From: a virus
IMG/VR virus record: IMGVR_UViG_3300042988_000624
Location: 1 to 24,385 of that record
Reading direction: 5' to 3' (one strand)
DNA length: 24,385 nt
Part shown: positions 5,955 through 24,129 of the stretch, piece after piece
Numbering within the stretch: position 1 is the stretch's first letter
How the letters are laid out: the number at the start of each line of letters is the position of its first letter
Program-made: the position numbers and the translations under genes
Notes under the pieces: generated by a model
The model's database searches: none
Told to the model about the DNA's origin: nothing
The model's input: the letters and a program-made list of their open reading frames with translations, nothing else

Positions 5955-5983
5955 ATTATAGCAGAGTTAAGGGTTAAAGTCCA
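5955..5983 (-). promoter_or_regulatory. Promoter for DNA ligase operon (nearly leaderless)
   Basis: On the minus strand: TGGACT, 17 nt, TATAAT preceded by TGC (extended -10). The -10 ends 9 nt before the ligase ATG. The expected start point is about 3 nt upstream of the ATG, and no Shine-Dalgarno site is present. Confidence 0.75.
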
Positions 5984-6263
5984 GATCGTCAGACCAGCGA
6001 ATTTCTTTAAAGGTTCCAACAGCTTTGCCGTGGATAAACAGCGTGCCCTCTGTGGGGTACTTGAGGAAGTGGACTTCCCGGCACCCCTGCTTGATCCATT
6101 GCAGGACGGCATCCTCCGCTTGCTGCTGCGCCTGCTTCCACCGGACGAGCAGGCTGAGAGAGCCGGATAGGGATTCGTCCCCATGCACAGCCTTGTGCGC
6201 GTAATAGTGGTCCCTGGCAAGCTGCGATAACTCACGTAACTGGTTCAGTCGTTCTCTGGTCAT
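5967..6263 (-). CDS. Small hypothetical protein
   Basis: I place the start at ATG 6263 (98 aa, beginning MTRERL) because TAAGGAA lies about 6 nt upstream. The longer GTG start at 6290 lacks a ribosome site and overlaps the previous gene. The protein has a helical N-terminal half with Arg, Gln and Leu, then a short beta-like part (VHFLKYP, TLFIHGKAVG). I do not recognise the family. It is the last gene of a four-gene early operon, 11 nt after the upstream stop codon. Confidence 0.7.
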   Translation of the reverse strand: MTRERLNQLRELSQLARDHYYAHKAVHGDESLSGSLSLLVRWKQAQQQAEDAVLQWIKQGCREVHFLKYPTEGTLFIHGKAVGTFKEIRWSDDLDFNP

Positions 6264-6274
6264 TGGATTCCTTA

Positions 6275-6586
6275 CTACTTCAAGAGCCACTCATGGTGGC
6301 GGTTGAGCGAGTGGTACTCCTGCTCCCAGTGCTCAGCTTTATCCTGGGCGACCCATAACTGCTTCTCGATGTCACTCTTCTCGATGCGAAGGTCGTCGGC
6401 CTCACCCTGAAACTTGGCGGCAAGAGTTTGCAAACGCTCAGCTTCAGCCTTCTGCTTCTCAAGTTCGTCCTTGAGGCTTTCGTTCTCGTTGGACAGTTCT
6501 CCAAGAAGTTTCTTAAGATGCTCCGCAAGGGCGGTCTTCGCCTGCGACAGTTCGTAGTAATACTTGGCGATTGCTCCGTTAGCCAT
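6275..6586 (-). CDS. Coiled-coil protein
   Basis: The chosen start is ATG 6586 (103 aa, MANGAIAKYY), which has GGAGGAA 5-6 nt upstream. The TTG at 6598 is less likely. From about residue 15 to the end the sequence is a continuous charged heptad pattern (repeats of Leu/Ala with Glu, Lys, Gln), so a long coiled coil is expected. There are no cysteines or enzyme motifs. It overlaps the preceding coiled-coil gene by 8 nt. The two may pair with each other; that is inference from adjacency and similar composition. Confidence 0.72.
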   Translation of the reverse strand: MANGAIAKYYYELSQAKTALAEHLKKLLGELSNENESLKDELEKQKAEAERLQTLAAKFQGEADDLRIEKSDIEKQLWVAQDKAEHWEQEYHSLNRHHEWLLK

Positions 6587-6893
6587 TGCTTCCTCCAATG
6601 CCAGCCTTCCATCGATTACGAAGTTCCTGAGCGATCAGCACCGTATACTTGCTGCCTTCAAGGTCTTTGGCAAACTTTTCCACGATCTCGCGGGCGTTGC
6701 GGAAGTCCTCCTTAGCTTCCAGCAGCTTAGTGCTGAGCCGCGCCTGCTCGTCCCGCCCCTCGTCAATGGCGTCATACAGCCCCTTGATCTGCTTATTCAG
6801 GCTGATGCTATCCATTTGAAGCTTGTGGATTTCTGCTTCAAGCTCTTGCTTCTCTTTGGCAAACTGATCGATAGCCATCTGAACGGTAGTCAT
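6579..6893 (-). CDS. Coiled-coil protein
   Basis: This 104-aa protein starts at ATG 6893, which overlaps the upstream stop by one base (TAATG), a coupled arrangement. Residues 5-85 are a long amphipathic heptad region rich in Glu, Lys, Leu and Gln. A short basic C-terminus (LRNRWKAG) follows. No catalytic motif is visible. It is the second gene of the operon starting at 7210 and is followed by a second coiled-coil gene with 8-nt overlap. Confidence 0.75.
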   Translation of the reverse strand: MTTVQMAIDQFAKEKQELEAEIHKLQMDSISLNKQIKGLYDAIDEGRDEQARLSTKLLEAKEDFRNAREIVEKFAKDLEGSKYTVLIAQELRNRWKAGIGGSNG

Positions 6894-7210
6894 TACTTAA
6901 CCCCCAGAAGAAGGACGGTGGCACTACGCTTTTCCTTGTAATAGCCATTCTTGTGGACCCAGGTCTTGCCCATCTTGATGGCGTCGTCGTCATCCAGCGA
7001 CTTCCAGATGGCGCGAGCAATGACCCGCTTCTGGACGGTGGAAAACTCGTCGTTGACATCCCAGAACGACTTGCCGCCGCCCAGGTAGGGCGATGTATTG
7101 GCCAGACGAGCCCGGAAAGGGACGGAGCCGACCGTACCGTAGGCGATCCTGCGGTCGATGATGACATCCACGTTAACATCGTTCATCGTGATCTTCTCAT
7201 TCGCTCGCAT
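6893..7210 (-). CDS. Small hypothetical protein, first SD-led gene of early operon
   Basis: This 105-aa protein starts at ATG 7210 with GGAG 5-6 nt upstream. The sequence looks globular, with alternating beta and helical segments (VDVIIDRRIAYGTVG, VIARAIWKSLDDDD, ATVLLLGVK). I do not recognise the family. Its transcript should start near 7296, giving an unusual leader of about 85 nt that contains a possible 32-codon leaderless reading frame overlapping this start. It heads a four-gene operon of small proteins. Confidence 0.75.
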   Translation of the reverse strand: MRANEKITMNDVNVDVIIDRRIAYGTVGSVPFRARLANTSPYLGGGKSFWDVNDEFSTVQKRVIARAIWKSLDDDDAIKMGKTWVHKNGYYKEKRSATVLLLGVK

Positions 7211-7295
7211 TGTATCTCCGGGTTAGAGGAAGGATGGGGCGGGTGGTCAGCAGGCCGGTCTTGCGACCGTTGTCCCCGCATTGCAGCGGCCCCAT
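7197..7295 (-). CDS. Possible leaderless 32-aa leader peptide
   Basis: ATG 7295 lies 7 nt after the TATAAT box, the spacing seen for the leaderless genes around it. The frame runs 32 codons (start MGPLQCGDNG, end RRYNASE) and stops at TGA, 11 nt past the start codon of the SD-led gene at 7210. Arg and Pro are frequent. It could be a translated leader that couples to, or controls, the downstream gene, or a chance frame in a leader. Only the position supports it. Confidence 0.35.
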   Translation of the reverse strand: MGPLQCGDNGRKTGLLTTRPILPLTRRYNASE

Positions 7296-7302
7296 CCAAA
7301 GC

Positions 7303-7331
7303 ATTATAGCAGGTTGTGGTTTAACTTGCAA
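7303..7331 (-). promoter_or_regulatory. Promoter for the four-gene early operon
   Basis: On the minus strand: TTGCAA, 17 nt, TATAAT with an upstream TGC. The -10 is 7 nt before ATG 7295 and about 92 nt before the SD-led gene at 7210. It closely matches the other minus-strand promoters. Confidence 0.78.
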
Positions 7332-8039
7332 CTACCACTTGGCCAGCACCTTCTCCATGTCCTTGAGATGCTTGGCAGCCTTGGCGACGACCTTGGTCTG
7401 CCACTCAATCGCGTTCGCCTGATCCTTGTGGGCTTCGGCGGCGAAAGTTTCCTGGGTCTTCGCCTGACACTCAGCCAGCGACTCAGTGTGATGCTTGACA
7501 TCCCACTCGTAGGAGGTCATGGTCTTGTTCTCGTAGCTCTTTTCGGCGGTGTACCGCATGAGGGATTCGGCTTCCCAGTTGCGGATAGCAGCCACCGGCG
7601 TCCCGACAGCGGCGTTCCGAATATCCAGAAGGCGCTGAGCTTCGGCAGCCTTGGCGTGCGAAGCAGCAAGCTCGCGGGTATGGTACTCGATGGAGTGCAG
7701 ATTGCTCTCCGCACGGTCGTTCAGAAGCTTCTGGTAGTACGCCTCGCTGGCGTAGTCGTTGAGGGTGGCCTGAAGCTTGATCAGGCTCGTCATGGCCCGC
7801 TCCACCACCTTCTCCATCATGTCCTTAGCGAAGGACGTATCCCGACCCGGGAGGGCAGCCAGGGCCGCACGGGCGTCGTTGGTGCCCATGTTCTTGCCAG
7901 CCTTCCAAGAAGAGATGTTGGACGGGGTGACGCCGATGACGGCAGCGACCTCCGCAGGCTTCCAGCCCTTGGCAAAGACGCCCTCCATGATGTCCTTCAT
8001 CTCGCGGCGCTTCCGGTCGTTCGTCACTTTGCTTGCCAT
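7332..8039 (-). CDS. HTH protein with long helical tail
   Basis: This 235-aa protein has a helix-turn-helix in residues 10-50: a first helix (REMKDIMEGVFAKG), then PAEVAAVIGV-TPSNISSWKAGK, matching the phage-repressor/terminase-small-subunit type of HTH. Residues 70-235 are almost entirely helical, rich in Ala, Glu, Lys and Gln, likely a coiled coil for oligomerisation. ATG 8039 lies 6 nt after a TATACT box, so the mRNA should be leaderless. A DNA-binding regulator of early genes is most likely. A terminase small subunit is an alternative, but no large subunit is in the window. Confidence 0.75.
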   Translation of the reverse strand: MASKVTNDRKRREMKDIMEGVFAKGWKPAEVAAVIGVTPSNISSWKAGKNMGTNDARAALAALPGRDTSFAKDMMEKVVERAMTSLIKLQATLNDYASEAYYQKLLNDRAESNLHSIEYHTRELAASHAKAAEAQRLLDIRNAAVGTPVAAIRNWEAESLMRYTAEKSYENKTMTSYEWDVKHHTESLAECQAKTQETFAAEAHKDQANAIEWQTKVVAKAAKHLKDMEKVLAKW

Positions 8040-8045
8040 TTGAGT

Positions 8046-8074
8046 AGTATACCTGGGTATGGGTTAAAATGCAA
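8046..8074 (-). promoter_or_regulatory. Leaderless promoter for the HTH gene
   Basis: On the minus strand: TTGCAT, 17 nt, TATACT, then exactly 6 nt to ATG 8039. The predicted transcription start coincides with the A of the start codon. This one lacks the TGC extension. Confidence 0.75.
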
Positions 8075-8075
8075 G

Positions 8076-8276
8076 CTACATATCGAGGGCGTTTTCAGCA
8101 GCAACTACGGCAGCATGCGTGCGCTCCCAATCCTTCTTCGCCTGCTCAAAGGAGATGCCCTCAAAGGAACCGGCCACCCTGGCGTGAGCCAGTACCTTGT
8201 CGGCCCTCCACCAGAGGGCGTAGGCGTTATCGTATTCCTTCTCCAACCGCTTCTGCTTCTGGGTCTTTTTTGCCAT
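8076..8276 (-). CDS. Small basic helical protein
   Basis: This 66-aa protein starts at ATG 8276, exactly 6 nt after a TATAAT box and with no ribosome site. It is Lys/Ala-rich and helical: a basic N-terminus (MAKKTQKQKRLEKEY), then amphipathic helices with two tryptophans. No family is recognised. It has its own strong promoter and is flanked by other separately promoted small genes. That arrangement is typical of phage early host-takeover genes; this role is inference. Confidence 0.72.
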   Translation of the reverse strand: MAKKTQKQKRLEKEYDNAYALWWRADKVLAHARVAGSFEGISFEQAKKDWERTHAAVVAAENALDM

Positions 8277-8282
8277 GCGAGT

Positions 8283-8311
8283 ATTATAGCAAAGCGAAGG
8301 ACTTAAGTCAA
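8283..8311 (-). promoter_or_regulatory. Strong leaderless promoter for the 66-aa gene
   Basis: On the minus strand: TTGACT (5 of 6 to consensus), 17 nt, TGC-TATAAT (perfect extended -10), then 6 nt to ATG 8276. This is the best -10/-35 pair of the set, and no Shine-Dalgarno site can fit. Confidence 0.82.
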
Positions 8312-8315
8312 CCCC

Positions 8316-8525
8316 CTAAGAACACTCGCAAAATCCCTGACAGACGGGACAGTCGCACTCGCCCCAGTTCGCGTTGCAGTGGGAAATGCGGTTAAAAGCC
8401 TTGCAATACCGGCACTGCTTGGCGGGCGGGGCCACGTAGGGCTTCGGCTCCTTGACGAACTCGATGAAGTCCGCGATAGGGTCAACCGGCTTTTCGGCAT
8501 CGGCTTCATTGGGGAAATCGACCAT
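8316..8525 (-). CDS. Small acidic Cys-rich (zinc-binding) protein
   Basis: This 69-aa protein starts at ATG 8525, 6 nt after a TAGACT box. The N-terminal half is acidic (NEADAEKPVDP). The C-terminal third holds seven cysteines: CRYCKAF, HC, ECDCPVCQGFCEC. Pairs of CxxC and CxC suggest one or two zinc sites or a metal cluster. There is no further domain. It is the first minus-strand early gene next to the divergent late region that starts at 8596. A host-targeting or regulatory protein is possible; the function is unknown. Confidence 0.72.
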   Translation of the reverse strand: MVDFPNEADAEKPVDPIADFIEFVKEPKPYVAPPAKQCRYCKAFNRISHCNANWGECDCPVCQGFCECS

Positions 8526-8531
8526 GAACAG

Positions 8532-8560
8532 AGTCTAACATGCCTCAAATACTGTGTCAA
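8532..8560 (-). promoter_or_regulatory. Leaderless promoter for the Cys-rich gene
   Basis: On the minus strand: a perfect TTGACA, 17 nt, TGT-TAGACT, then 6 nt to ATG 8525. Its -35 box lies 9 bp from the divergent AATCTT element at 8570, so early and late regulators could meet here. Confidence 0.75.
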
Positions 8561-8569
8561 GTCCGACCC

Positions 8570-8575
8570 AATCTT
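8570..8575 (+). promoter_or_regulatory. Candidate late promoter element CAATCTT
   Basis: AATCTT preceded by ACCC lies 20 nt before ATG 8596. Transcription starting about 7 nt downstream would give a short leader holding the AGAGGA ribosome site. The motif matches those before 780, 11434, 12444, 16241 and 21204. Confidence 0.5.
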
Positions 8576-8595
8576 GTCTCTAGAGGATTTTCTGA

Positions 8596-10266
8596 ATGTC
8601 CAGTGAGAACGTGTACCTCATAGCGGCTGCCGATCACCTTGCCGGGGCGGTCAAGCATTCCGTCCAGCATGATCAGCCCCGTAAGCTATCTCAGCTAAAG
8701 CAGGATGTCGAGCGAGGTCTACGCATCTTTGAGTCTTGGATGGAAGACCACGGCGGGCGCGTCCTTTTGTTCCAGGGCGATAAAATCTTTGCGGAGATCC
8801 CGGGTGAAAACCTAGCCGACCTCCCAGACCTTCATGCCCAGGTGCAGGATGCTTGGGGCGATACTATTACTGTCGGGGTTGGTCTTGACCTTACAGAAGC
8901 ACACAAGGCGTGTGACAATGGTCGCAAACGTGGCGGCAAGCGCATAGTCTTTTATGCTCCTGAAGTAGAGCAGCACCTTAACGACGAGGCGTCCGCTAGC
9001 GAGTCTCACGATGCCACCACTCCTGACAGCGACCCCGACGAGCTAAAGTCGATGGCGTTGAATAAGGCAAATACTCCTTCTCCTGGCCCCCCGACCCCCA
9101 ATGAACAGCAATCATTTTCCATGGGTGCAGCACCTTCCCCACAGTCAGCCCCGTCACCGTTTGCCGCTGGACAGGCACAGCCGTCAGGCGCAGACATGCC
9201 TCCTACTCCGTCATCTACTAATGCGGCTGCCGGATTGTCCCCTGTCGAGGCTCAGATGCGCCAAATGGCAAGTCAGGGCGAAGCACAGGGTGCCCGCGCA
9301 GAAAATCAAGCAGCAGCAGCAGACGACGGCACTACCGGACCAGACCAGTTAAAGCAGGGCATCTCCCGCATTCTTCTCAAGGTAAAGGAACAAGCCCAGA
9401 TTCTTGAACAGCTTAAAGAACAAGCACCGGAAGCCTATAAGGCAATTCTGGGTATGGTTCAGATCGTAGCCACCATTGGCAAGCAGTTGGTACCGCCCAA
9501 GGGTGAGGGGCAAGACCAGGGGCAGGAAGAAGGGGCACCCATCGCTAAGGCATACATCATCGAGAGCGATGATGATATCCACCAGCTTCGTAGGAGCTAT
9601 GAAGTAGGAGGACCGGAGACGGCACCGCTCAAGAGCACCGGGATCAACCAGCAAGTCAATGTGCAGGATCATGTGTATCCTACCAACAAAGAGGAGCTTG
9701 CTCCCAATCAGCCTCTCCCTCCACCCGGACGCCTAAGCAAGATTCGTAAGGCTGCTATGGCTAAGAAGGCTACTGGCGATGCGGTCACGGCTGCTCCTCC
9801 TGGCCTTGACGTTACGGCTGGCATTCGTAAGGACGAGTGGAAGCCTACCCATTGTGAGACTAAGGACTGTCCTAATCCCCCGGAAGAGGATAGTCACCAG
9901 TGTAAGGAGTGCCGCAAGAAGTACCCATTCCCGTATCGTTCACCCGGCGATCCCGACGAAGAACTAGGCAAAGCCCTACCTATGCCAGAGGAGGGCGCTA
10001 AGAAGCGCCTCCCAAAAGCAAGCGGGTCGCTCCTCTCGCGTTTACGGGGCGACTCGTCCCCCCAGGCACATAAGTATTTCCACCAGACCCCCGGTGAGGC
10101 CGCTCACGTAGGTATGGACGGCAAGCCAGAGGGTAAGAACGTTGTTCGTCAGTATCAAAGCGGTATGGTCAAGCCTATTAACAACCGAGCCGAGACAGAC
10201 ACGGGACAGTCGCACCCAGTGTCCGCTTTGAATCCTACCGACAGCGAGGGTCGCGGAGGTCAGTAA
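8596..10266 (+). CDS. Virion-cluster protein with N-terminal palm (Cas10/GGDEF-like) domain
   Basis: This 556-aa protein starts at ATG 8596 (AGAGGA about 9 nt upstream). Residues 1-121 resemble the nucleotidyl-cyclase/polymerase palm fold of the mCpol/Cas10/GGDEF group: a first strand with AAADHLAG (Asp13), a helix, GGRVLLFQGDKIF (53-65) at the position of the GG-DD hairpin, then ITVGVGLDLTEAHKA and GGKRIVFY (91-120), the usual closing helix and strand. The second hairpin Asp is Lys63, so catalysis may be lost. Residues 130-400 are Pro/Gln/Ala-rich linker with a short coiled coil. A Cys4 knuckle lies at about 420-439 (C-x4-C, C-x2-C). The gene sits among neck genes, which is unusual for such a domain. 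Confidence 0.75.
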   Translation: MSSENVYLIAAADHLAGAVKHSVQHDQPRKLSQLKQDVERGLRIFESWMEDHGGRVLLFQGDKIFAEIPGENLADLPDLHAQVQDAWGDTITVGVGLDLTEAHKACDNGRKRGGKRIVFYAPEVEQHLNDEASASESHDATTPDSDPDELKSMALNKANTPSPGPPTPNEQQSFSMGAAPSPQSAPSPFAAGQAQPSGADMPPTPSSTNAAAGLSPVEAQMRQMASQGEAQGARAENQAAAADDGTTGPDQLKQGISRILLKVKEQAQILEQLKEQAPEAYKAILGMVQIVATIGKQLVPPKGEGQDQGQEEGAPIAKAYIIESDDDIHQLRRSYEVGGPETAPLKSTGINQQVNVQDHVYPTNKEELAPNQPLPPPGRLSKIRKAAMAKKATGDAVTAAPPGLDVTAGIRKDEWKPTHCETKDCPNPPEEDSHQCKECRKKYPFPYRSPGDPDEELGKALPMPEEGAKKRLPKASGSLLSRLRGDSSPQAHKYFHQTPGEAAHVGMDGKPEGKNVVRQYQSGMVKPINNRAETDTGQSHPVSALNPTDSEGRGGQ

Positions 10267-11075
10267 TGCTGACCGTCAAGCTCAGTATCAAACCGCTTGT
10301 AGACGCAACCGACCGCTTGAAAATCAAAGCGGACGTTCTGTTGGAACATGCCGTTGCCGATCTGGCCGCTCAGACCCACGCTCACATTGTCGAGCAGGCC
10401 CATCTGAAACTGCACTCTACCCGTCAGAAGTATGTTGATGCCCTATCTTACGAACAGGTAAGTGCGGGGGCGTGGACGGTCACACTAAACAACAGCGCCA
10501 TGTGGATTGAGGAGGGCATGCCTCGCCATGAGATGATTGACGACCTTCTCAAGAACGGTGCCCAGGTTAGCAAGAAGACGGGCGCACGCTATCGCGTCAT
10601 CCCCCTCCCTATCAAGGGCAAGACCCAGACACCCGCTTCCGGTCAGGCTATCCGGGAGGCAGCCATGAAGGCGCTTCGGGCAGCCAAAATTAACATGAGT
10701 GCTATTGAAAAAGAGGTGGACGGTCGAGTGAAGCTGGGGATGCTTCACAAGCTCGATGTGACCGGCGACCCACTTAAGACCGCTGAAGGGGCAGGCCAAG
10801 GCCACGGTCCCATCGGTCACGTTCGTCAGGGAATGACGGGTATGCCATTTCTTAAGGGGATGCGCGTAATGCAAAGACAGGTTAACTCTGCCCCTCCCGT
10901 CATTCAACGCACAGCTATGACATTCCGAGTGGTGTCATCGTTGATGAAGGGGACGGGAAGGTGGGTTCACCCAGGTATCAAGGCTGTGAACCTGATGGAT
11001 GAAGCAAAAGCCTGGGCCGACAAAGAGTTTGAAACTAGGATAAAGCCTGAGATTGAGTCGGCTCTAGGGATGTAG
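10266..11075 (+). CDS. Neck / tail-completion protein, HK97 gp10-like
   Basis: This 269-aa protein starts at ATG 10266, overlapping the previous TAA by one base, with GGAGG 6 nt upstream. The N-terminal half has the layout of HK97-gp10-like neck proteins: a long helix in which a His-rich stretch handles the region (LAAQTHAHIVEQAH), then a strand (WTVTLNNSAMWIEEGMPRHEM) and a basic loop. The C-terminal part is Gly/Met-rich and ends in a helical segment with FETRIKPEIESAL. Family members join the head connector to the tail tube. The position four genes upstream of the sheath fits. Its last 41 nt overlap the convergent gene at 11035. Confidence 0.7.
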   Translation: MLTVKLSIKPLVDATDRLKIKADVLLEHAVADLAAQTHAHIVEQAHLKLHSTRQKYVDALSYEQVSAGAWTVTLNNSAMWIEEGMPRHEMIDDLLKNGAQVSKKTGARYRVIPLPIKGKTQTPASGQAIREAAMKALRAAKINMSAIEKEVDGRVKLGMLHKLDVTGDPLKTAEGAGQGHGPIGHVRQGMTGMPFLKGMRVMQRQVNSAPPVIQRTAMTFRVVSSLMKGTGRWVHPGIKAVNLMDEAKAWADKEFETRIKPEIESALGM

Positions 11076-11394: not shown

Positions 11395-11400
11395 GCAAAA

Positions 11401-11427: not shown

Positions 11428-11433
11428 GTAGTC

Positions 11434-16240: not shown

Positions 16241-18751
16241 ATGGCTCGTCAATACAATGACCCTATCGGTGGCACGCTGATTATCCCTGCCGCTTACGCC
16301 TCAATCACCGTGGCCCCGTCGTCTGGCGGGCTTAGCACCACGGGAGTTTTGGCTATCGTCGGTGAGGCTGACGCTGGTGCCGATTGGAGTGAGGAAGCTG
16401 CCAATGGCGAGCTTCAGGATAACGCCTACGGCCCTGATGAATTCCAGGCTGTGATCGACAAGTACAAGTCGGGTCGCATTGTGGACGCCTTCCGGGCGGC
16501 TGCATCTGCGGCAGTAGACCCGGCCATTAACGGCTCGTTCACCTCCTGCATCATCGTCAAGACCAACGTCGGCACGACCTCGACGGCGGCTCTGACTGAC
16601 CTCGACGGCGTTGCGTACCCCAACCTTGTGGCAAAAGCCGCAGGCGCGGTTGGCAACCTGATCTACTTCAATGTGACCAACCCCACCGCTACTGTTCAGC
16701 CCACGGTTACCGCTACGTGGATTGCTCCAGTTAGCAATGCCAAGGTCATCAACCTATCCGCTTCAGGTACCAAGGCTGCTGCTGTTACTGCCACTACGGC
16801 ATACACTCCTGCCCAGGCACAGGCCGCAATCCACGCACCCACGGTTAGCGGCGTCACTTGTACCGGTGGCGGATCACGCGCCATCTCTACCGGCGCTCCT
16901 ACCGTAATCGTAGCATTGGTGAGCGGCAAGACCGCCAGCTTTACTACCAACGGCACTTGGCCTGCGGCTGTGGCTGTCGGTGACTCCCTATGGGTTCCCG
17001 CTGGAAGCTCAATCGCTGGGGCAGGTAACATCAACGTTGGTTACTACCAGATTCTCACCAAGAACAACACCGTCATTACCGCTATCAAGCTTTCCGATGC
17101 GGATAAGGCCGGTGCAGTGGCCGGTACTGTCACCACTCCCGGTGCAGCGAACGCAGCCATCGATGCTGACCTAACCGATTTGGTTGCCTACGCTCCGCTA
17201 GTTATCTCGTACAGCCCCTCGACCATTCTCCCTACTGCTAAGGCCCAGGCTGGTCTTGCCACCACTCTGGAAATCTCTGAGCCAAGCGTTGTAGAAGAAG
17301 TGTTCTACAGTGCGGGCGGGGTCAAGGCTACTTGGGTGTCCACGGCTAGCTCTCCCTACGCTATCAAGGGTGCTGCTGAAGTGTCAGCCAGCATTAACGT
17401 CAACCGTCAGAGCGATAACATCAGCGAGACTATCATCGCTGGTGGAGAAGTCGCCCTAGAGGTTGGCTGTACGGCTGCTACCGCTACGGTGACCATCAAC
17501 GCCACTCAATGCATTCTAAACGATGGGGCGCTCACCACTACGCTAAATCTAGCGGATTACCCAACCATTGCAGACCTTAGCAACTACATCAACAGCCTCG
17601 CCACTTGGTCTGCGGCTCCGTTTACCGCCATCCTAGGCAACCTCTCCACTCTTGCATTGGACGAGGGCGTCTTCACTTGCGCCAGCTACCAGGGTGCCAA
17701 GGTCGCTCGTATCAAGACTGACGCATACCGAATGGGCCTAGCTATCGCTAACTCTCAGCTAGTGGAATTTGCCAGTGCTCCTAGCGCCAGCTTGCCGTTG
17801 GCGGTTCCCACCTATACCTACCTTGCTGGTGGGACCAAGGGCGCAACGACCGCTAGCGACTTTGCTGCGGCTATCGATGCCCTACAGCAAGTACGATGCA
17901 ACTTCGTCGTCCCGCTTATTTCCCGGGACGCTAGCGAAGACATTGTAGACGGCCAGACGGATGCTGCTTCGACTTACGAGATCGACGCAGTGAACGCTTA
18001 CGTCAAGAGCCATGTGCATGCCATGTCTACCATGAAGGTAAAGCGCAATCGCCAGGGGTTCATCTCCAAGCGAGATACCTTCGCCGTAGTCAGCAACGCA
18101 GCGGCTAACATCGCTTCCTACCGCTGCGCCATGGTCTTCCAAGATGTGAAGTCCGCTGTCAGCGGTTCAGTCGTCCAGTACCAGCCCTGGTTGGGTGCTG
18201 TGCTTGCGGCTGCCACTCAGGCCGGTGCCTTCTACAAGTCCCTCGTCCGTAAGCAGGTTAACACCTCTGGTGTGCTACAGGCTGCTGGCGATTGGTCATA
18301 CAACTACGATTCCCAGGTCGAGAATGCCCTGATCGCTGGCCTCAACCCGATTCGTCGGGCCGAGGAAGGTGGCTTTGTGTGGGTGTCAGACCAGACGACC
18401 TACGGCAAGGACACCAACAACGTCTACAACTCAATCCAGATGGTATACGCTGCTGACACCGTGGCTCTCACCACTGCTCAGCGCATGGAGCGAGCGTTCG
18501 TTGGTCAGTCGGTCGCTGATGTGACCGCTGCGGTGGCTCTCAGCTACCTCGACGGCATCATGTCCGACTTCCTCCGGTTGAAGCTAATCGCTACGTCCAC
18601 CGACGCGCCTCTAGGCTACAAGAATGCTAGAATCGTTATCCAGGGACCAGTGATGCGCGTCAGCGTAGAAGTCAAGATCGCCGGTTCTATCTACTTCATC
18701 CCCATCGCCTTCTACGTGACCGAGATCACGCAGTCGGCTGCTGGGGTCTAA
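16241..18751 (+). CDS. Tail sheath protein
   Basis: This 836-aa protein starts at ATG 16241 with AAGGAG 7 nt upstream. The N-terminus (YNDPIGGTLIIPAAYASITVA, then GVLAIVGEADAG) and the C-terminal part (NAYVKSHVHAM, FAVVSNAA, SVADVTAAVALSYLDGIM, ARIVIQGPVMRVSVEVKIAG) are typical of contractile-tail sheath subunits. The C-terminal fold makes the inner contact with the tube. The protein is longer than the 659-aa T4 sheath. Residues of about 150-330 are Thr/Ala/Val-rich beta structure, probably an outward-facing domain insertion. The tube gene follows after 13 nt. Confidence 0.92.
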   Translation: MARQYNDPIGGTLIIPAAYASITVAPSSGGLSTTGVLAIVGEADAGADWSEEAANGELQDNAYGPDEFQAVIDKYKSGRIVDAFRAAASAAVDPAINGSFTSCIIVKTNVGTTSTAALTDLDGVAYPNLVAKAAGAVGNLIYFNVTNPTATVQPTVTATWIAPVSNAKVINLSASGTKAAAVTATTAYTPAQAQAAIHAPTVSGVTCTGGGSRAISTGAPTVIVALVSGKTASFTTNGTWPAAVAVGDSLWVPAGSSIAGAGNINVGYYQILTKNNTVITAIKLSDADKAGAVAGTVTTPGAANAAIDADLTDLVAYAPLVISYSPSTILPTAKAQAGLATTLEISEPSVVEEVFYSAGGVKATWVSTASSPYAIKGAAEVSASINVNRQSDNISETIIAGGEVALEVGCTAATATVTINATQCILNDGALTTTLNLADYPTIADLSNYINSLATWSAAPFTAILGNLSTLALDEGVFTCASYQGAKVARIKTDAYRMGLAIANSQLVEFASAPSASLPLAVPTYTYLAGGTKGATTASDFAAAIDALQQVRCNFVVPLISRDASEDIVDGQTDAASTYEIDAVNAYVKSHVHAMSTMKVKRNRQGFISKRDTFAVVSNAAANIASYRCAMVFQDVKSAVSGSVVQYQPWLGAVLAAATQAGAFYKSLVRKQVNTSGVLQAAGDWSYNYDSQVENALIAGLNPIRRAEEGGFVWVSDQTTYGKDTNNVYNSIQMVYAADTVALTTAQRMERAFVGQSVADVTAAVALSYLDGIMSDFLRLKLIATSTDAPLGYKNARIVIQGPVMRVSVEVKIAGSIYFIPIAFYVTEITQSAAGV

Positions 18752-18764
18752 ATAGGAGACTACA

Positions 18765-19229
18765 ATGGCTACTTCCAAGATTATGCATGGCGCACGGGCG
18801 CAAGTGATCCTCAACGGTGTTACTGTTGGATTGTTCACTAACGTCAGCTACGGCATGCAGTACAACCTCACCCCCGCCTTCGTTCTAGGCCGCTTCTCTG
18901 CTGTTGAGCTAGCGTATACGGGTGCAGAGCCTATCGGCATTCAGGCAAGTGGCTGGCGGGTCATTGACCAGGGGCCATTCACTGCTTCGGGTGGAAACAT
19001 GCCCAAGTTGCAGGACTTGCTCGTAGCCGAAGACATGGAGTTTTCTCTCTACGACCGTCAGACCGATAAGCTGATCATGAATGTCGTTGGGGTTCGTCAC
19101 CAGGGATTCAACTCAAGCGTGGCTCCCAAGGCCCTAGAGGAGATGTCTCTCAACTTCATGGGCCTCCGTCTAAGCGACGAAAGCGCAGAGAATAACGAAG
19201 CTCCGGGCGCATCAGAGCTTCCTACGTAA
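18765..19229 (+). CDS. Tail tube protein
   Basis: This 154-aa protein starts at ATG 18765 with AGGAG 7-8 nt upstream. Its beta-rich sequence (AQVILNGVTVGLFTNVSYGM, EPIGIQASGWRVI, MEFSLYDRQTDKLIMNVVG) and its size, about that of T4 gp19 (163 aa), fit the inner tube subunit of contractile tails. Sheath followed at once by tube is the conserved order. The C-terminal 15 residues are an acidic flexible tail. The gene ends 30 nt before a strong terminator. The assignment rests on position, size and beta pattern rather than a diagnostic motif. Confidence 0.82.
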   Translation: MATSKIMHGARAQVILNGVTVGLFTNVSYGMQYNLTPAFVLGRFSAVELAYTGAEPIGIQASGWRVIDQGPFTASGGNMPKLQDLLVAEDMEFSLYDRQTDKLIMNVVGVRHQGFNSSVAPKALEEMSLNFMGLRLSDESAENNEAPGASELPT

Positions 19230-19258
19230 GATCGGGGCAGCCCTTTAAGCTGCCTCCT

Positions 19259-19307
19259 GGCTGGTTGTCGGGCTCCCTGCTCCCCCGATGACCAGCCTCT
19301 TTTATTT
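19259..19307 (+). terminator. Intrinsic terminator after sheath-tube unit
   Basis: A 14-bp stem with two wobble pairs (arms 19259-19272 and 19284-19297) and an 11-nt loop is followed by TCTTTTATTT. A smaller GGCAGC/GCTGCC hairpin precedes it (about 19234-19253). The T-run overlaps the last codons of the convergent gene at 19302. Confidence 0.85.
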
Positions 19308-19511
19308 CTGGCTGCACTCTGGGCAGTCGATATCGTGCGACTCCTCCCTGCTTTCGCCTGTCCCGCCGCACCGTTTACACCGTGGCTGCGCGTCCATCAG
19401 GGCTTTTCGGCAATCCATGAGCAGATCGCGCACCGCATCGTGGTTCGCCATCTCCGGGTTAAATAGCCCGCCACCTTGTAGATACGCATTGATGCGATCA
19501 ATGAGCGTCAC
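19302..19511 (-). CDS. Small protein with DnaJ-like zinc motif
   Basis: I choose GTG 19511 (69 aa), which overlaps the upstream TGA in a GTGA coupling with GAGGC 8-9 nt before it. A GTG at 19532 is the longer option. The C-terminal part has CKRCGGTG and CPEC about 15 residues later, the DnaJ-type CxxCxGxG zinc motif seen in many small phage proteins. The N-terminal half is helical (LIDRINAYL, HDAVRDLLMDCRKALMD). It is the last gene of the eight-gene minus operon and ends in the terminator of the late genes. Confidence 0.7.
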   Translation of the reverse strand: MTLIDRINAYLQGGGLFNPEMANHDAVRDLLMDCRKALMDAQPRCKRCGGTGESREESHDIDCPECSQK

Positions 19512-19780
19512 GGCTTTTGCCTCATTTCCCACATGGTTTCGCGGATTGCTTCCTTGATGCGTCGGAGGTCTTCCTCTCGCTGGGCTCGCCGGTATTCAGC
19601 ATAGCTATTGAACACTAGAACAACTGTGGCAAAGCCCGCGACTACCGCAATGATTACGTCCCTGTGCTCTGGCTCTGCTAACCAGAAGATGCTGGCAGTT
19701 AGCAGTACCATCCCTGTTACGATTGCCAGTACAAACACAAGAGTACGGAGCTTCTTCAGGTGAGGCATTAGCTGTTTCAT
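19508..19780 (-). CDS. Two-span membrane protein
   Basis: This 90-aa protein starts at ATG 19780, overlapping the upstream TGA (ATGA). Two hydrophobic helices are clear: about 13-34 (LVFVLAIVTGMVLLTASIFWL) and about 41-58 (VIIAVVAGFATVVLVFNS). A charged helical tail follows (YRRAQREEDLRRIKEAIRET). The basic N-terminus and charged C-terminus suggest both ends are cytoplasmic. The size and topology resemble small phage inner-membrane proteins, including some holins, but the early operon context argues against a lysis role. Function unknown. Confidence 0.75.
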   Translation of the reverse strand: MKQLMPHLKKLRTLVFVLAIVTGMVLLTASIFWLAEPEHRDVIIAVVAGFATVVLVFNSYAEYRRAQREEDLRRIKEAIRETMWEMRQKP

Positions 19781-19989
19781 AGAGCCCGTCCCGTTCTGCG
19801 GATCATCATGTCGTAAATCTCTATCCCGTCTTTTGTGCCCAATAGCAGCACCATGGAGTCGCCAGACATTGTGATGGAGTGCTCCCCAAGCCCCGGGGGG
19901 CTGACGTTAAGGTGGCTCTCGATCCACTCGTCACGGTACTTGGTTTCAACGGGTACTCCCGTCCAATCGCGCATCTTAGCTTTGGTCAT
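19777..19989 (-). CDS. Small hypothetical protein
   Basis: This 70-aa protein starts at ATG 19989, overlapping the upstream TGA (ATGA), with GGGAG about 7-8 nt before. It has an N-terminal helix (KYRDEWIESHLNVS) and a beta-rich remainder (SITMSGDSMVLLLGTKDGIEIYDMMI). No cysteines, membrane segment or known motif. Tight stop/start coupling on both sides makes it a real operon member. Confidence 0.7.
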   Translation of the reverse strand: MTKAKMRDWTGVPVETKYRDEWIESHLNVSPPGLGEHSITMSGDSMVLLLGTKDGIEIYDMMIRRTGRAL

Positions 19990-20180
19990 AGTTTCTCCCA
20001 GAAACAGTTTTCACAAAGGTCATGCGGATACTCGCTAAGGAGCGGTGCCTCAAAATGCGTAGCTGATTCACCTTTTTTGCCGCAGCGGGTGTCCATGGCG
20101 TTAGGATAGGAGGCTGTCGTTAAATGCCACAGGCCGTCACGGGTAGCTCTACCCCAGATGTCCCTAAGCAGAGTGCTCAC
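19986..20180 (-). CDS. Small Cys/Trp protein, possible zinc site
   Basis: This 64-aa protein starts at GTG 20180, overlapping the deaminase TGA (GTGA), with a GGAGAAG site about 10 nt upstream. It contains LWHLTT, DTRCGKKG and a C-terminal CENCFWEKL. Three cysteines and nearby histidines suggest a small zinc site. The pattern of a cysteine after the first third and CxxC at the end is common among tiny phage proteins. No function is assigned. Confidence 0.68.
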   Translation of the reverse strand: MSTLLRDIWGRATRDGLWHLTTASYPNAMDTRCGKKGESATHFEAPLLSEYPHDLCENCFWEKL

Positions 20181-20497
20181 AGTGACATCTTCTCCATCTG
20201 ACCCTGGTAATTGCTATAGGTCACAGACTTAACGCCAGCCGCGCGAAGCATGGCCTCGCACTTAGGGCAGGGCTTAGCCATCCCAAGCTCCCCGTTCTTG
20301 CGGAGGCGAATGGACACCACCCTGGTCCCCACTCTGTGGTCAGGCCACAGCTTGCCAAGGGCAACCTGCTCAGCGTGAATTTCGCCGTGATTGTACCCTG
20401 TAGCTACAAGGGCACCTCCTCGATAGACAAGGACGGCGTGCTTGTGCTGCTTGTGGTTGGACTTCTTGACAAGTCGTCGGATATTTTCAGTTACCAT
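20177..20497 (-). CDS. Cytidine/deoxycytidylate deaminase-fold protein
   Basis: This 106-aa protein has the zinc-deaminase signature: HAE at 41-43 (EIHAEQVAL) and PCPKC at 76-80, giving the His, Glu and two Cys of the catalytic site. All catalytic residues are present. The length is short compared with dCMP deaminases of about 150-190 aa and closer to minimal cytidine-deaminase or guanine-deaminase-like folds. The substrate could be dCMP, cytidine, a purine base or a nucleic acid; the sequence does not decide. It overlaps the MazG-like gene upstream by 7 nt, so the two probably act on the nucleotide pool together. Confidence 0.85.
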   Translation of the reverse strand: MVTENIRRLVKKSNHKQHKHAVLVYRGGALVATGYNHGEIHAEQVALGKLWPDHRVGTRVVSIRLRKNGELGMAKPCPKCEAMLRAAGVKSVTYSNYQGQMEKMSL

Positions 20498-20868
20498 CGG
20501 GTGTCTTGTGGGGGTAGGCGTCCATGAACAAACTTGATCAAGCCTAGCAGATTTTGGTAGTTTGTCAATAGGTCATTGGGTAGCCCCCAGTGGTTCTCGT
20601 CGCTATTCTCGTAAATGTGCTGGCGCATATAGTTGGCAGCATCGAGAAGCTCTTGGTACAAGTCCATCATAGCGGAACGTCCATTAAAAGGCTGTAGGGG
20701 CGTCCCATACTTCTTCATCCCCTCTGCCTTGCGAGCCATGACATCCCTACAAATGGCTCCCCCGCCTAGAAACAGACCGATATCGTTACGAACCATGTCC
20801 GCAATATGCGGGAGGTCTGGACGCTCTTGTAGCGGCGCAGGCTCATGCTTGGAAGCTGAACTAGCCAC
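20491..20868 (-). CDS. MazG-like nucleotide pyrophosphohydrolase (dATP/dGTP diphosphohydrolase type)
   Basis: This 125-aa protein starts at GTG 20868 (GAGAGG 6-7 nt upstream). It matches a phage all-alpha MazG-like group: KAEGMKKYGTPLQPFNGR, then MMDLYQELLDAANYMRQ with the metal-binding Glu73 and Asp76 (ExxD). Known relatives hydrolyse dNTPs to dNMP and pyrophosphate; the named member MazZ works in the 2-aminoadenine pathway of cyanophage S-2L. No PurZ is visible here, so base replacement is not implied. It overlaps the 24-aa membrane peptide by 8 nt and the deaminase by 7 nt. Confidence 0.75.
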   Translation of the reverse strand: MASSASKHEPAPLQERPDLPHIADMVRNDIGLFLGGGAICRDVMARKAEGMKKYGTPLQPFNGRSAMMDLYQELLDAANYMRQHIYENSDENHWGLPNDLLTNYQNLLGLIKFVHGRLPPQDTRW

Positions 20869-20935
20869 GGCTGACCTCTCTCATAAACCCTACAAGGAGT
20901 ACGAACGCAAATAGAAACGCAAGAATGAGTCCCAT
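20861..20935 (-). CDS. 24-aa membrane peptide
   Basis: ATG 20935 follows the winged-helix stop by one base. AAAGG lies about 8 nt upstream. The peptide is a near-continuous hydrophobic helix (GLILAFLFAFVLLVGFM) followed by REVSRG. Its TAG overlaps the MazG-like GTG start by 8 nt. The only other content of this 68-nt gap is this frame, which supports it. Very short genes are hard to prove from sequence alone. Confidence 0.55.
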   Translation of the reverse strand: MGLILAFLFAFVLLVGFMREVSRG

Positions 20936-20936
20936 G

Positions 20937-21161
20937 TCATACCTTTCTGATCGTGCTGGTAGCTGCCCAAAGAAACGTCTTACGACCCGCCTTAGTTTTC
21001 CCTAAACCTATTGGAATTACAAGCCCTTCCTGTTCTAGCTCGCATCTGCGCGTCCTAGCAGAACTTGGGTTCATATCCAACGAGGACGCAATTTCTTCAT
21101 CTGTTAAGCCTAACCGTGAATCGTTGGCAAGTAGCAAAAGAATGCGGTCTTTAGCCTTCAT
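20937..21161 (-). CDS. Winged-helix DNA-binding protein
   Basis: This 74-aa protein has the winged-helix layout: helix 1 (KDRILLLLAND), helix-turn-helix (TDEEIASSLDMNPSSARTRRCELEQEGLV) and a basic wing (GLGKTKAGRKTFLW). Relatives are MarR/ArsR-like regulators and small phage transcription factors. It heads the eight-gene minus operon, so it may regulate its own promoter at 21175 and the divergent late gene at 21204. The start ATG 21161 is 13 nt after the TATACT box and has a weak AAGGGA site. Confidence 0.82.
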   Translation of the reverse strand: MKAKDRILLLLANDSRLGLTDEEIASSLDMNPSSARTRRCELEQEGLVIPIGLGKTKAGRKTFLWAATSTIRKV

Positions 21162-21174
21162 AGTGTCCCTTTTT

Positions 21175-21180
21175 AGTATA
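21175..21180 (-). promoter_or_regulatory. Extended -10 promoter for the eight-gene operon
   Basis: On the minus strand: TGC-TATACT, 13 nt before ATG 21161. The -35 at 17-nt spacing is poor (GGTACT), so this relies on the extended -10. The expected leader is about 7 nt, and it lies 9 bp from the divergent AATCTT element at 21189. Confidence 0.65.
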
Positions 21181-21188
21181 GCAGAGCC

Positions 21189-21194
21189 AATCTT
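21189..21194 (+). promoter_or_regulatory. Candidate late promoter element CAATCTT
   Basis: AATCTT preceded by GCC lies 9 nt before ATG 21204. No ribosome site precedes that ATG, so the mRNA would be nearly leaderless. It shares the short intergenic gap with the divergent TATACT promoter. Confidence 0.45.
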
Positions 21195-21203
21195 AGTAGT
21201 ACC

Positions 21204-21734
21204 ATGGACCCAATCGAAACTTTAGCTAAACCCAACATCTTAGAACACTTGCCCATCTTCTTGGGACTTGGCGCTGTCATTTTCGGAGCCCTGTACTTTA
21301 TCATCCGTAAGGTGTTTGCTCTCTATAATACCGCGAAGGAATTTATCGCACACGCAGTGGACGAGAAGATGCCCGCTTCCATCGTTACTGCGCTGGAAGA
21401 CAGAGCCCCCGCTATCTTTGATAAGGTTGTGGCAGAACGACTAGCCAAGCATGAAGAGGTTGAGGAGTTAAAGCTTGAGAAAGCTTTGCATGCCCTCAAG
21501 GAAGAGTTTGACATCGACCGCGAAAAGCGCGACGAGAAAATCGCCAGTAGTCTTGCAGACCGCACCACTACGCTCGATAAGGGGCAGGCTGCCATCATGG
21601 AGAAGTTAAGCGGAGTGGATAACCGAGTCCAAGTTGTGCAGCTTAGGCTGGAAACCCATGAGGCTCGTATCAGCGCAGTAGAACAGGTTGTACGGGGGCC
21701 ACTGAAGGCGGCATCCAAGAGGCGAAAGAGGTAA
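21204..21734 (+). CDS. Membrane-anchored coiled-coil protein
   Basis: This 176-aa protein starts at ATG 21204. One membrane helix is seen at about 17-36 (IFLGLGAVIFGALYFIIRKVF). Residues 60-165 form a long charged helix with heptads (EEVEELKLEKALHALKEEF, MEKLSGVDNRVQVVQLRLETHEARISAVEQ), and the end is very basic (ASKRRKR). The topology is type II- or III-like, with the coiled coil probably in the cytoplasm. It heads a three-gene plus-strand membrane cassette. A lysis role (holin partner or spanin-like) is possible; a membrane scaffold is an alternative. Confidence 0.75.
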   Translation: MDPIETLAKPNILEHLPIFLGLGAVIFGALYFIIRKVFALYNTAKEFIAHAVDEKMPASIVTALEDRAPAIFDKVVAERLAKHEEVEELKLEKALHALKEEFDIDREKRDEKIASSLADRTTTLDKGQAAIMEKLSGVDNRVQVVQLRLETHEARISAVEQVVRGPLKAASKRRKR

Positions 21735-21737
21735 GTC

Positions 21738-22022
21738 ATGTGGAAGATAGCACAGACCATCCTTGCCCCACCAGAGCGTAAGCTGTACGTGGCGTCAGTC
21801 ACCGCTTTATGCATCCTAATCATCTTTGGTGTAACGGTTTATCACCCGCCAGCGATTGAAGCGATGAAAGTCGCTTGCGAATGGCTTGTGTTTTTGGCTG
21901 CCAGCTTCATGGGCGGTAACGCTCTTACCGCTTTTGCGAATCGTGGACAGACTGTATCTAGAGTGAATACAGTCAAGACCACTACAAGTAGAGTGAATAC
22001 CGACAGCGGAGAAAACGGATAA
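21738..22022 (+). CDS. Two-span membrane protein, holin-like size
   Basis: This 94-aa protein starts at ATG 21738, 3 nt after the previous stop, with AGAGG upstream. Two hydrophobic helices are visible: about 17-35 (YVASVTALCILIIFGVTVY) and about 45-66 (VACEWLVFLAASFMGGNAL). The C-terminal tail is Thr-rich and contains SRVNT twice. The size and two-span topology are those of class II holins. No endolysin is in the window, so the lysis assignment stays tentative. Confidence 0.7.
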   Translation: MWKIAQTILAPPERKLYVASVTALCILIIFGVTVYHPPAIEAMKVACEWLVFLAASFMGGNALTAFANRGQTVSRVNTVKTTTSRVNTDSGENG

Positions 22023-22441
22023 TGACCAAAGAAGAAATGAATTTCTGGACCGGCGTTGTCTTGATGTCCACCGGCGCTATTTGGCTTGCGTGGGAGATCA
22101 TCCTGATCGTTGGTCGCGGTAAGGGCCAGGATTGGGACACCATCTCTATGTTCACGACCAATGGTGCCCTGCACCTGTCCGCGCTCCCCGTATTCTGGGG
22201 AATCCTAGCCGGTCACCTGTTCCTCAACACCCCTATGAATAACGATCCGCCCCTAGGCTTTCAGTCATGGTGGATCTGGGTTGTCGTCCTAGCTCTATTC
22301 GGGGTGTCTGACGCCTTCTTCTATAACACTCCTAGAGAGAATCTGCCTGGGTTCTTCCGCCTTGTCCGCACTCCGTTCTTCGGGCTGATGGTAGGGCTTG
22401 CCAGTGGGTTCCTTAGCTGGCCACAGCGCATCTCATGGTAG
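22022..22441 (+). CDS. Four-span membrane protein
   Basis: This 139-aa protein starts at ATG 22022, overlapping the previous TAA by one base. Four hydrophobic segments are visible: about 9-31 (WTGVVLMSTGAIWLAWEIILIV), 47-66 (ALHLSALPVFWGILAGHLFL), 84-102 (WWIWVVVLALFGVSDAFFY) and 116-134 (TPFFGLMVGLASGFLSW). It is Trp-rich. No family is recognised. It closes the membrane cassette and ends one base before the convergent gene at 22442. Confidence 0.72.
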   Translation: MTKEEMNFWTGVVLMSTGAIWLAWEIILIVGRGKGQDWDTISMFTTNGALHLSALPVFWGILAGHLFLNTPMNNDPPLGFQSWWIWVVVLALFGVSDAFFYNTPRENLPGFFRLVRTPFFGLMVGLASGFLSWPQRISW

Positions 22442-22636
22442 TTAAGTGCTGATGGGAATGCGGATTCCGCACCGGTACGCCAGTGCGGCCTCTCTAGCTA
22501 AATAGACTGAGCCTGGGTCGTTCATATTGAGGGCGCGACAAACCTGATAGGCTACCTCTTTAGCCTCGACACACTTGGGGCAGAGTGTAAGCCACGCCTC
22601 CTTAACTTCGCCGCATTGGCATTCGGTATCGCTCAA
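22442..22636 (-). CDS. Small zinc-ribbon-like protein
   Basis: This 64-aa protein starts at TTG 22636, overlapping the upstream TGA (TTGA), with AGGGGG about 6-7 nt before. N-terminal cysteines CQCGE and LCPKC form a CxC-x9-CxxC zinc knuckle. A helical segment follows (EVAYQVCRAL, YLAREAALAYRCG). No in-frame ATG is available, and the TTG is supported by the ribosome site and overlap. It is the last gene of the RNA-ligase transcription unit. Confidence 0.68.
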   Translation of the reverse strand: MSDTECQCGEVKEAWLTLCPKCVEAKEVAYQVCRALNMNDPGSVYLAREAALAYRCGIRIPIST

Positions 22637-22809
22637 AACTTGCCCCCTCTGATCTGGAAGATCAGGGCGTCGATGATGGTGTCGGCCTCCTTGACAGCTT
22701 TGGTCAGCCTAGTGTTGGTTTCTCTGGCATGAACAACGTCTGCCTCAAGCTGACGACACAGGCCGCGCAGTGTCTCTACCTCTTTACAAAGGCTGTCGTA
22801 GTCTCTCAC
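22633..22809 (-). CDS. Small coiled-coil protein
   Basis: The chosen start is GTG 22809 (58 aa), which overlaps the RHH stop as GTGA and has a GGGGG site 5-6 nt upstream. The longer ATG at 22899 would overlap the RHH gene by 94 nt. The sequence is a helical heptad pattern (CKEVETLRGLCRQLEADVV, RLTKAVKEADTIIDALIFQI). No motif is recognised. It probably cotranslates with the RHH gene and may oligomerise. Confidence 0.65.
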   Translation of the reverse strand: MRDYDSLCKEVETLRGLCRQLEADVVHARETNTRLTKAVKEADTIIDALIFQIRGGKF

Positions 22810-22979
22810 TTGACCCCCGGAAACTGCTGTACTGTGGGCAGCGCAATACCCCATGACTTCTGGATCAGCCAGGACAGGCTGCGATCCTGACGGACGCACT
22901 CCTGCTCCATGATCTCTCTCATGTCGCTGGGGATGTAGATTGAAACCTTCCGCTTAGAGCCTCGCGTCTTGACTGTCAT
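22806..22979 (-). CDS. Ribbon-helix-helix DNA-binding protein
   Basis: This 57-aa protein starts at ATG 22979 with AAGGAA 5 nt upstream. It has an RHH layout: a basic strand (KRKVSIYIPSDM), helix 1 (REIMEQECVRQ) and helix 2 (SLSWLIQKSWGIAL). The DRSLSW..QKSW pattern resembles a small family I associate with Myxococcota and related bacteria. It would dimerise through the ribbon to bind an operator. It lies 22 nt after the RNA ligase stop, so it is probably a cotranscribed regulator of this unit or of early promoters. Confidence 0.75.
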   Translation of the reverse strand: MTVKTRGSKRKVSIYIPSDMREIMEQECVRQDRSLSWLIQKSWGIALPTVQQFPGVK

Positions 22980-23001
22980 GTTCTTCCTTTCGGTGTTGGT
23001 A

Positions 23002-24093
23002 TTACTTCTCTAGGTAAGCCATCAACTGATCGATTTGCATGTCTGCGAGAAACTGACGAGCCGTGTCCACGCGGTTATCGAGCTTCTGGAACAGGAAGGC
23101 GGGACAAGCACCATCCTTGGCATAGACCGCAAACTGCTTGCGGCTCAATAGGTACCCCAGGTTCCGCTCCCGGTCTTTGATGCAATCCCACTCGTACTCC
23201 ATCTGCTCCACAAGACGGGTGTATTTCTCCTTGAGAGCCAGGAACCGCTCCTTAAACTCAGGGAAGTAAGTAAGGAATTCCTCGCTCTCGTTCTTGCGGA
23301 TAATCTCCACCAGCCGCTTCGGGCTGGCCCCAACGGAATCCTTAAGATGGTGCAGGGCGACGTACTGGGGATGCTTCACCTTCACCCGGTTGTACTTACC
23401 ATCGACCACCACGTAGCCCTCAAACCGCTGGCCGTCCAGCTTATCGAAGGACGCCAGGACATCCTCAAAGGAGGACATCGGGAAGGTCTGGGCCAAGGGA
23501 AAATTCTGGCCGTCATAGGCAGGGTTAAACTCCTGGCCACTCTCTACATGACGCACGCCAATCAGCGTGAGCTTGGGCTCCATGTGAGGCACGACCACCA
23601 TGTTGTAGGGGGACGTAAGCTCAAACATGTAATTGAAGTTGGGGTCGAGGTACTTACCTTGCAGCTTGGTGGCGTGGAACGTATCCCAGAAGAGGGTGGC
23701 GAAATCCATGGGCCACGCATTGACGTTGCCAGCCGCGTCAGGGTTGCCAGAAGAGGAGACATGCCAATCGTCCTGATAGTAGTACATCGTCATCAGGGAG
23801 CCGTCCAGCTTCTCCTGAATGCGGGCCGTAGACCAATCGATGGGCGCAGCCAGTTGCTCGCCCAGGTTGAAAAACTTGTCGAACGGACGGCACACCACGT
23901 TCCAGCCATTTTCAGAGTCGAGAATAACGCCACGGCACTCGCGAACCAGTGGCTCCGTAAAGGGGCTGTTGATCTGGTCGTACTTGAAAAGGTAGAGGCT
24001 GGACAGCCGCTCAGATCGGGTGACCTTGATAGCGTACTGGTTGGTCAGGCCCTCAATGGTGCCGCCGTTGCGGAGATAAGCTTGAAGGAGCAT
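23002..24093 (-). CDS. RNA ligase, T4 Rnl1 type
   Basis: This 363-aa ATP-dependent RNA ligase joins 5'-phosphate and 3'-OH RNA ends. The motifs lie where they do in T4 Rnl1 (374 aa): motif I EKLDGS with Lys95, motif III FELTSPYN with Glu158, motif IV EGYVVV with Glu225, and motif V VKVKH with Lys238 and Lys240. ECRGVIL (52-58) is also typical. The helical C-terminal domain is present. I place the start at ATG 24093: the promoter occupies 24101-24129, so the upstream in-frame start at 24129 cannot be on the transcript. Only 7 nt separate the -10 box and this ATG. It may repair tRNA cut by host defence nucleases. Confidence 0.92.
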   Translation of the reverse strand: MLLQAYLRNGGTIEGLTNQYAIKVTRSERLSSLYLFKYDQINSPFTEPLVRECRGVILDSENGWNVVCRPFDKFFNLGEQLAAPIDWSTARIQEKLDGSLMTMYYYQDDWHVSSSGNPDAAGNVNAWPMDFATLFWDTFHATKLQGKYLDPNFNYMFELTSPYNMVVVPHMEPKLTLIGVRHVESGQEFNPAYDGQNFPLAQTFPMSSFEDVLASFDKLDGQRFEGYVVVDGKYNRVKVKHPQYVALHHLKDSVGASPKRLVEIIRKNESEEFLTYFPEFKERFLALKEKYTRLVEQMEYEWDCIKDRERNLGYLLSRKQFAVYAKDGACPAFLFQKLDNRVDTARQFLADMQIDQLMAYLEK

Positions 24094-24100
24094 ACAGAGG

Positions 24101-24129
24101 AGTATAGCAAACCAAAGTGAAAAGGGCAA
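24101..24129 (-). promoter_or_regulatory. Leaderless promoter for RNA ligase, overlapping a terminator
   Basis: On the minus strand: TTGCCC, 17 nt, TGC-TATACT, then 7 nt to ATG 24093. The -35 hexamer is the distal arm of the terminator hairpin of the upstream gene. Confidence 0.72.

Follow-up and report, generated by a model that had tools for sequence, protein, structure and literature searches.

We find that many non-structural genes of an uncultured contractile-tailed soil phage are very probably transcribed as leaderless messenger RNAs (mRNAs) from host-type promoters. The phage is represented by a viral DNA of 24,385 bases with a guanine-cytosine (GC) content of 55% (IMG/VR record IMGVR_UViG_3300042988_000624; hereafter the window), and the promoters in question lie on its minus strand, each with its −10 element 6–9 nucleotides (nt) upstream of an ATG. 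In the model that we propose, strong host-type housekeeping promoters (TTGACA-17-TGnTATAAT) would drive a set of non-structural genes, often one by one, and +1 would fall on the AUG or within ~3 nt of it, so that the mRNA would be leaderless. The first gene would be translated through recognition of the 5′ AUG without Shine-Dalgarno (SD) pairing, and the genes inside the same units as well as the structural genes would be translated from SD sites.

We scanned both strands with a generic E. coli-type weight matrix at a threshold of 11.5 bits; the coordinate of each minus-strand site is the last base of its −10 element. An earlier note on this DNA had listed six minus-strand promoters of this kind. 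Base-by-base reading finds all of them, with a 17-nt spacer in six of six and, in order of position, 9, 7, 6, 6, 6 and 7 nt between −10 and ATG (N9, N7 and so on), and the independent two-strand scan gives the window seven top-ranking sites, all on the minus strand, of which these promoters are six. The sites and their first genes are as follows, where ORF is open reading frame, aa is amino acids and dG is the SD duplex energy, calculated for the anti-SD sequence against the 20 nt before the start.

5955..5983, minus strand: promoter TGGACT-17-TATAAT with a TG-extended −10, N9 to the DNA-ligase ATG; 14.1 bits; TTTAACCC box at the −35 edge
4827..5945, minus strand: ATP-dependent DNA ligase, predicted to have no leader or one of 1–3 nt; phrog_114, E 3.6e-70; Pfam DNA_ligase_A_M
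7303..7331, minus strand: promoter TTGCAA-17-TATAAT, N7 to ATG, TTAAACC in the spacer; 16.7 bits
8046..8074, minus strand: promoter TTGCAT-17-TATACT, N6 to ATG; 12.4 bits; TTTAACCCATA box immediately 3′ of the −35
7332..8039, minus strand: helix-turn-helix (HTH) protein, 235 aa, predicted leaderless; HTH_3, E 1.3e-4, just under the Pfam cut-off; weak PHROG regulator matches
8283..8311, minus strand: promoter TTGACT-17-TATAAT, N6 to ATG; 18.4 bits, the top-scoring site of the window
8076..8276, minus strand: 66-aa ORF, predicted leaderless; without SD, dG +1.8
8532..8560, minus strand: promoter TTGACA-17-TAGACT, N6 to ATG; 15.5 bits
8316..8525, minus strand: Cys-rich 69-aa ORF, predicted leaderless; without SD, dG −2.0
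24101..24129, minus strand: promoter TTGCCC-17-TATACT, N7 to ATG; 11.8 bits; −35 overlapping a terminator-like hairpin at its 3′ arm
23002..24093, minus strand: RNA ligase (T4 Rnl1-like), predicted leaderless; phrog_562, E 7e-56; RNA_lig_T4_1, E 3e-16

With their uniform spacer and scores of 11.8–18.4 bits, the six sites have the features of housekeeping (sigma70/sigmaA) promoters. Comparable sites are absent from the structural (plus) strand in the same scan, and the top plus-strand site (11.5 bits) scores lower than the seven and lies inside a gene. Five of the seven sites have at N6–9 the ATG that opens an ORF of 45 aa or longer, against 0.16 expected from the density of ATGs of such ORFs (P = 1.1e-7); the ORF after the 7303 site has only 32 codons and is excluded from the five. 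The exact position of +1, translation without a leader and expression early in infection are inferred, the last being plausible in view of the gene content (ligases, HTH protein) and the host-type promoters. The terminator-like hairpin at the RNA-ligase promoter (GGGCAGGGAC-TTCG-GTCCTTGCCC-TTTT, 24150-24124, minus strand) overlaps the −35, and a single stretch may thus do duty at both ends.

The leaderless-type starts have no SD site. Specifically, the median SD duplex energy is −2.3 kcal/mol for the 10 leaderless-type starts of the window and of its relative L031 (described below), versus −7.0 kcal/mol for 29 other starts (Mann-Whitney P = 9e-5); two entries of the energy table (32-aa ORF, 6262 start) are offset by one base, which leaves the comparison unchanged. 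All 10 predicted cases start with ATG, and the starts of the DNA ligase and RNA ligase match their homologs, which align from residues 1–4. Structural genes and internal genes of the leaderless units carry SD sites.

The geometry is conserved in a close relative. L021 and L023 are the window virus itself (99.8%), while L031 (IMGVR 3300045974_000209) is 76–81% identical to the window over aligned DNA. The nucleotidase/RNA-ligase gene pair is orthologous in L031, where the RNA ligase (83% identical, aligned from residue 1) follows an ortholog of the window gene at 24150-24350. A rough global alignment indicates that the DNA between nucleotidase and RNA ligase has diverged strongly, through both substitutions and indels. 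The RNA-ligase promoter reads TTGCCC-17-TATACT-N7-ATG in the window and TTGCAC-17-TATCAT-N6-ATG in L031, so that the spacing of the orthologs (N7 and N6) has been kept over evolution. In addition, three other genes of L031 have leaderless-type starts, namely one of 63 aa (N7), one that is DUF2786-like and encodes 227 aa (N6), and the nucleotidase gene (N6, weak promoter). The leaderless first genes proposed in the earlier note are thus supported by the geometry, by the missing SD pairing and by the conservation of that geometry before different genes of a relative. Further away, N7 sites occur in the more distant relatives G003 and G004, and single N4–N7 sites in L036, L038 and L039, in each case too few per genome for significance alone; no leaderless-type sites were found in far relatives of GC 38–50%.

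Several observations weigh against this interpretation. The −35 of the 5955 promoter is poor and its gap to the ATG is 9 nt, only two of the four leaderless-type sites of L031 exceed the scan threshold, and promoters further upstream could give leadered transcripts of some of these genes as well. Furthermore, the matrix shows no enrichment in 50-kb Deinococcus radiodurans and Granulicella plasmid samples used as positive controls; it is therefore not a general leaderless detector, and host phyla were compared through pattern counts instead.

The proposal that leaderless starts are reserved for the first gene of early transcripts holds only in part. Most other starts have SD sites, but SD-type sequences also occur at the promoters at window 21180, L031 9647 and L031 2600, and the 7303 unit probably opens with a structured leader. 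The first of these counter-examples is the following.

21175..21180, minus strand: −10 element TGC-TATACT, ATG at N13, short SD-like GGGA; kept in L031 at 9647 as N12, AAAGGGGGA

The L031 2600 promoter, before a DUF932-type gene, has a normal N39 leader with AAAGGAG. With at least two leadered promoters with SD in the lineage, the leaderless rule is not absolute. The N12–13 sites, where the ATG follows GGGA or GGGGGA, are also what one would expect if very short leaders (~6–15 nt) with cryptic ribosome sites were the general rule and leaderless translation were not used. We consider this highly improbable, as N6–7 leaves no space for an SD in the transcript and as measured leaders of 4–14 nt are absent in Lactococcus, where leaders are either <5 nt or >~14 nt (PMC10986495), a split that agrees with N6–9 in the window phage.

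Alternatively, the short gaps could reflect mere genome compaction, with transcripts beginning further upstream or translation further downstream, so that the mRNAs would be leadered. Compactness is usual in phage genomes, the 5955 promoter overlaps the end of the gene before it, which contains its −35, and the three successive small genes could lie on one longer transcript. This explanation is unlikely, however, given that the spacing is sharp at 6–9 rather than broad, that the ligase start codons are fixed through homology and that the SD is missing. The comparison with Myxococcus phage Mx1 points the same way. Mx1 was compared through the tail sheath, whose gene served as bait for finding relatives.

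16241..18751, plus strand: tail sheath gene; phrog_279, E 7.5e-23; SD AAGGAG, dG −8.0

The Mx1 tail sheath is 44% identical and belongs to the same sheath family, and both phages have many one-gene units, each with a TTGACA-type promoter. Unlike the window phage, Mx1 has no leaderless geometry: none of 43 promoter sites has an ATG at N6–9, the spacing peaks at N25–31, leaders are mostly of 25–31 nt (mostly 21–41 nt in its one-gene promoter units), and an SD is present in most of the Mx1 examples listed. One sheath family therefore holds both a leadered lineage, Mx1, and a lineage of leaderless type, that of the window; we infer that this split may follow the host. In the Mx1 records L027 and L029, many small genes each have their own promoter of the TTGACA...TAGTAT/TAGAGT type and a leader of ~25–31 nt, and several of these promoters share GGATCT as a spacer motif.

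At 7303, the unit probably begins with a structured leader and not with a leaderless gene, because its transcript would open with a long hairpin followed by an SD-led gene.

7205..7302, minus strand: probable structured 5′ leader, a long hairpin GGAUGGGGC...GCCCCAUCC followed by GGAGAUACA-AUG; fold −37.6 kcal/mol, z −2.0
6893..7210, minus strand: 105-aa ORF, first real gene of the unit; SD GGAGA, dG −6.6

The same stretch also holds the 32-codon ORF, whose ATG stands at N7 and whose end runs into the next gene, as would that of a leaderless leader peptide coupled to that gene. Such a peptide is conceivable but the less favored reading, since the ORF folds as a long hairpin whose pairing takes in the ATG region and the next gene has its own SD. 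The hairpin, possibly an attenuator or stability element, has a GNRA-type loop (GGTC-GCAA-GACC) and stands before the SD-led gene.

Our analysis of the promoters reveals a further sequence element. A TTTAACCC box (or CTAACCC or TTAAACC) occupies a fixed place by the −35 in 6 of the 10 leaderless-type promoters of the window and L031, namely window 5955, 7303 and 8046 and L031 1316, 1544 and 6787, and the genes behind these six promoters are non-homologous.

Window 5978-5971, 7324-7318 and 8068-8058, and L031 1300, 1527 and 6770: TTTAACCC(ATA) box, adjoining the −35

When IMG/VR was searched for TTGNNNTTTAACCC-N9-TATAMT with no ATG required, 48 distinct sites were found, of which 40 are non-coding on both strands; an ATG follows at N5–9 in 14 and at N10–45 in 18. 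For a control box of matched composition there are 41 distinct sites, of which 6 are non-coding and 1 has an ATG no further away than N9 (Fisher P = 4e-11 for non-coding position and 6e-4 for a close ATG). The box looks like a real phage-enriched promoter element, in a comparison that controls only partly for relatedness among contigs, for base composition and for host sampling. With the looser −10 TATNNT, it has one match in 301 Chloroflexota genomes and none in 36 mixed or 249 Pseudomonadota genomes; as a host feature it is rejected for the phyla tested, with one match in 586 bacterial genomes. The box is likewise not special to the clade of the window phage, as many unrelated viral contigs contain it, and among the literature matches listed there are only unrelated eukaryotic or chance ones. 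We tentatively raise the possibility that promoters with the TTTAACCC box immediately 3′ of the −35 form a class of their own, enriched in phages, that may be read by a phage or phage-co-opted factor and may often fire leaderless mRNAs in unrelated phages. If real, it would be an undescribed promoter element common to many phages. In L151, L199, L211, L157 and L175, TTTAACCC leaderless-type promoters stand before replication-type genes of other phages; judged by sequence appearance, these genes encode 337-aa Cys-motif proteins like T4-type primase and PIN/FEN-like proteins.

As a host clue, the geometry is less specific than had been suggested. The earlier note had read it as pointing to Deinococcota or Actinomycetota, but this clue is too broad, since Chloroflexota and some Acidobacteriota commonly show that geometry too. 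Specifically, in pattern counts covering these two phyla, TTG-17-TATAMT-N6-ATG has 283 matches in 151 Chloroflexota whole genomes, versus 145 at N11 and 12 backward, and 164 matches in 99 Acidobacteriota genomes, versus 22 backward (the only control there), concentrated in some genomes. In a published survey, leaderless genes make up 39% in Deinococcus-Thermus, 26% in Aquificae, 19% in Actinobacteria, 16% in delta-Proteobacteria (8/33 genomes) and 13% in Acidobacteria (Zheng et al., PMC3160421 Table 2). The geometry is compatible with a host tolerant of leaderless mRNA and picks out no single phylum. An alignment search of genome contigs for relatives of the tail sheath, aimed at the host, found none.

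Leaderless phage mRNA is established: the cI and cro mRNAs of PY54 start at the AUG by rapid amplification of cDNA ends (PMC4488713), a general remark is found in PMC5312081, and most middle and late mRNAs of the Thermus phage phiYS40 are leaderless according to a passage of PMC3594737 that cites Sevostyanova 2007. The window phage is a new, well-supported example of leaderless phage mRNA rather than a new kind. As in PY54 cI/cro and lambda cI, a strong promoter stands immediately before the start codon, but in those temperate phages only one or two genes, all regulatory, are concerned, and in the present one a gene set. As that passage describes phiYS40, most mRNAs of one kinetic class are leaderless; there, however, they are middle/late mRNAs in Thermus, whereas here host-type promoters precede replication-type genes of an unrelated myovirus known by sequence only. 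Leaderless genes of Deinococcus-Thermus and Actinobacteria likewise have the −10 ~6–9 nt before the start (PMC3160421, PMC12340547), with TANNNT boxes ~10 bp before leaderless gene starts in the survey (PMC3160421), but these are chromosomal genes, and in high-GC groups their box is a TAnnnT that carries little information in its middle. The TATAAT and clear −35 at 17 nt of the window phage are nearer to medium-GC groups such as Chloroflexi (PMC3160421). The window phage offers a clear sequence case in which one lineage appears leaderless for a whole set of non-structural genes and a sheath-family relative has ordinary leaders, and it lets one ask what makes phages change their way of starting translation and how they do so, perhaps along with a host change. 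In practice, gene finders that demand an SD site will misplace such leaderless starts.

No near relative of the window phage was found among 50,697 phage records, no transfer RNA or Rfam family within the window, and no relative of its HTH protein, a candidate regulator, in viral contigs. The tail sheath gene is flanked by further large plus-strand ORFs, and the minus-strand genes include, besides the ATP-dependent DNA ligase, the RNA ligase and the HTH protein, a gene for a dCMP-deaminase-like protein. A short radical SAM-like protein (4053-4622, minus strand; phrog_31524, E 2.4e-18) is encoded in the unit downstream of the DNA-ligase gene, with a 71-aa ORF in between.

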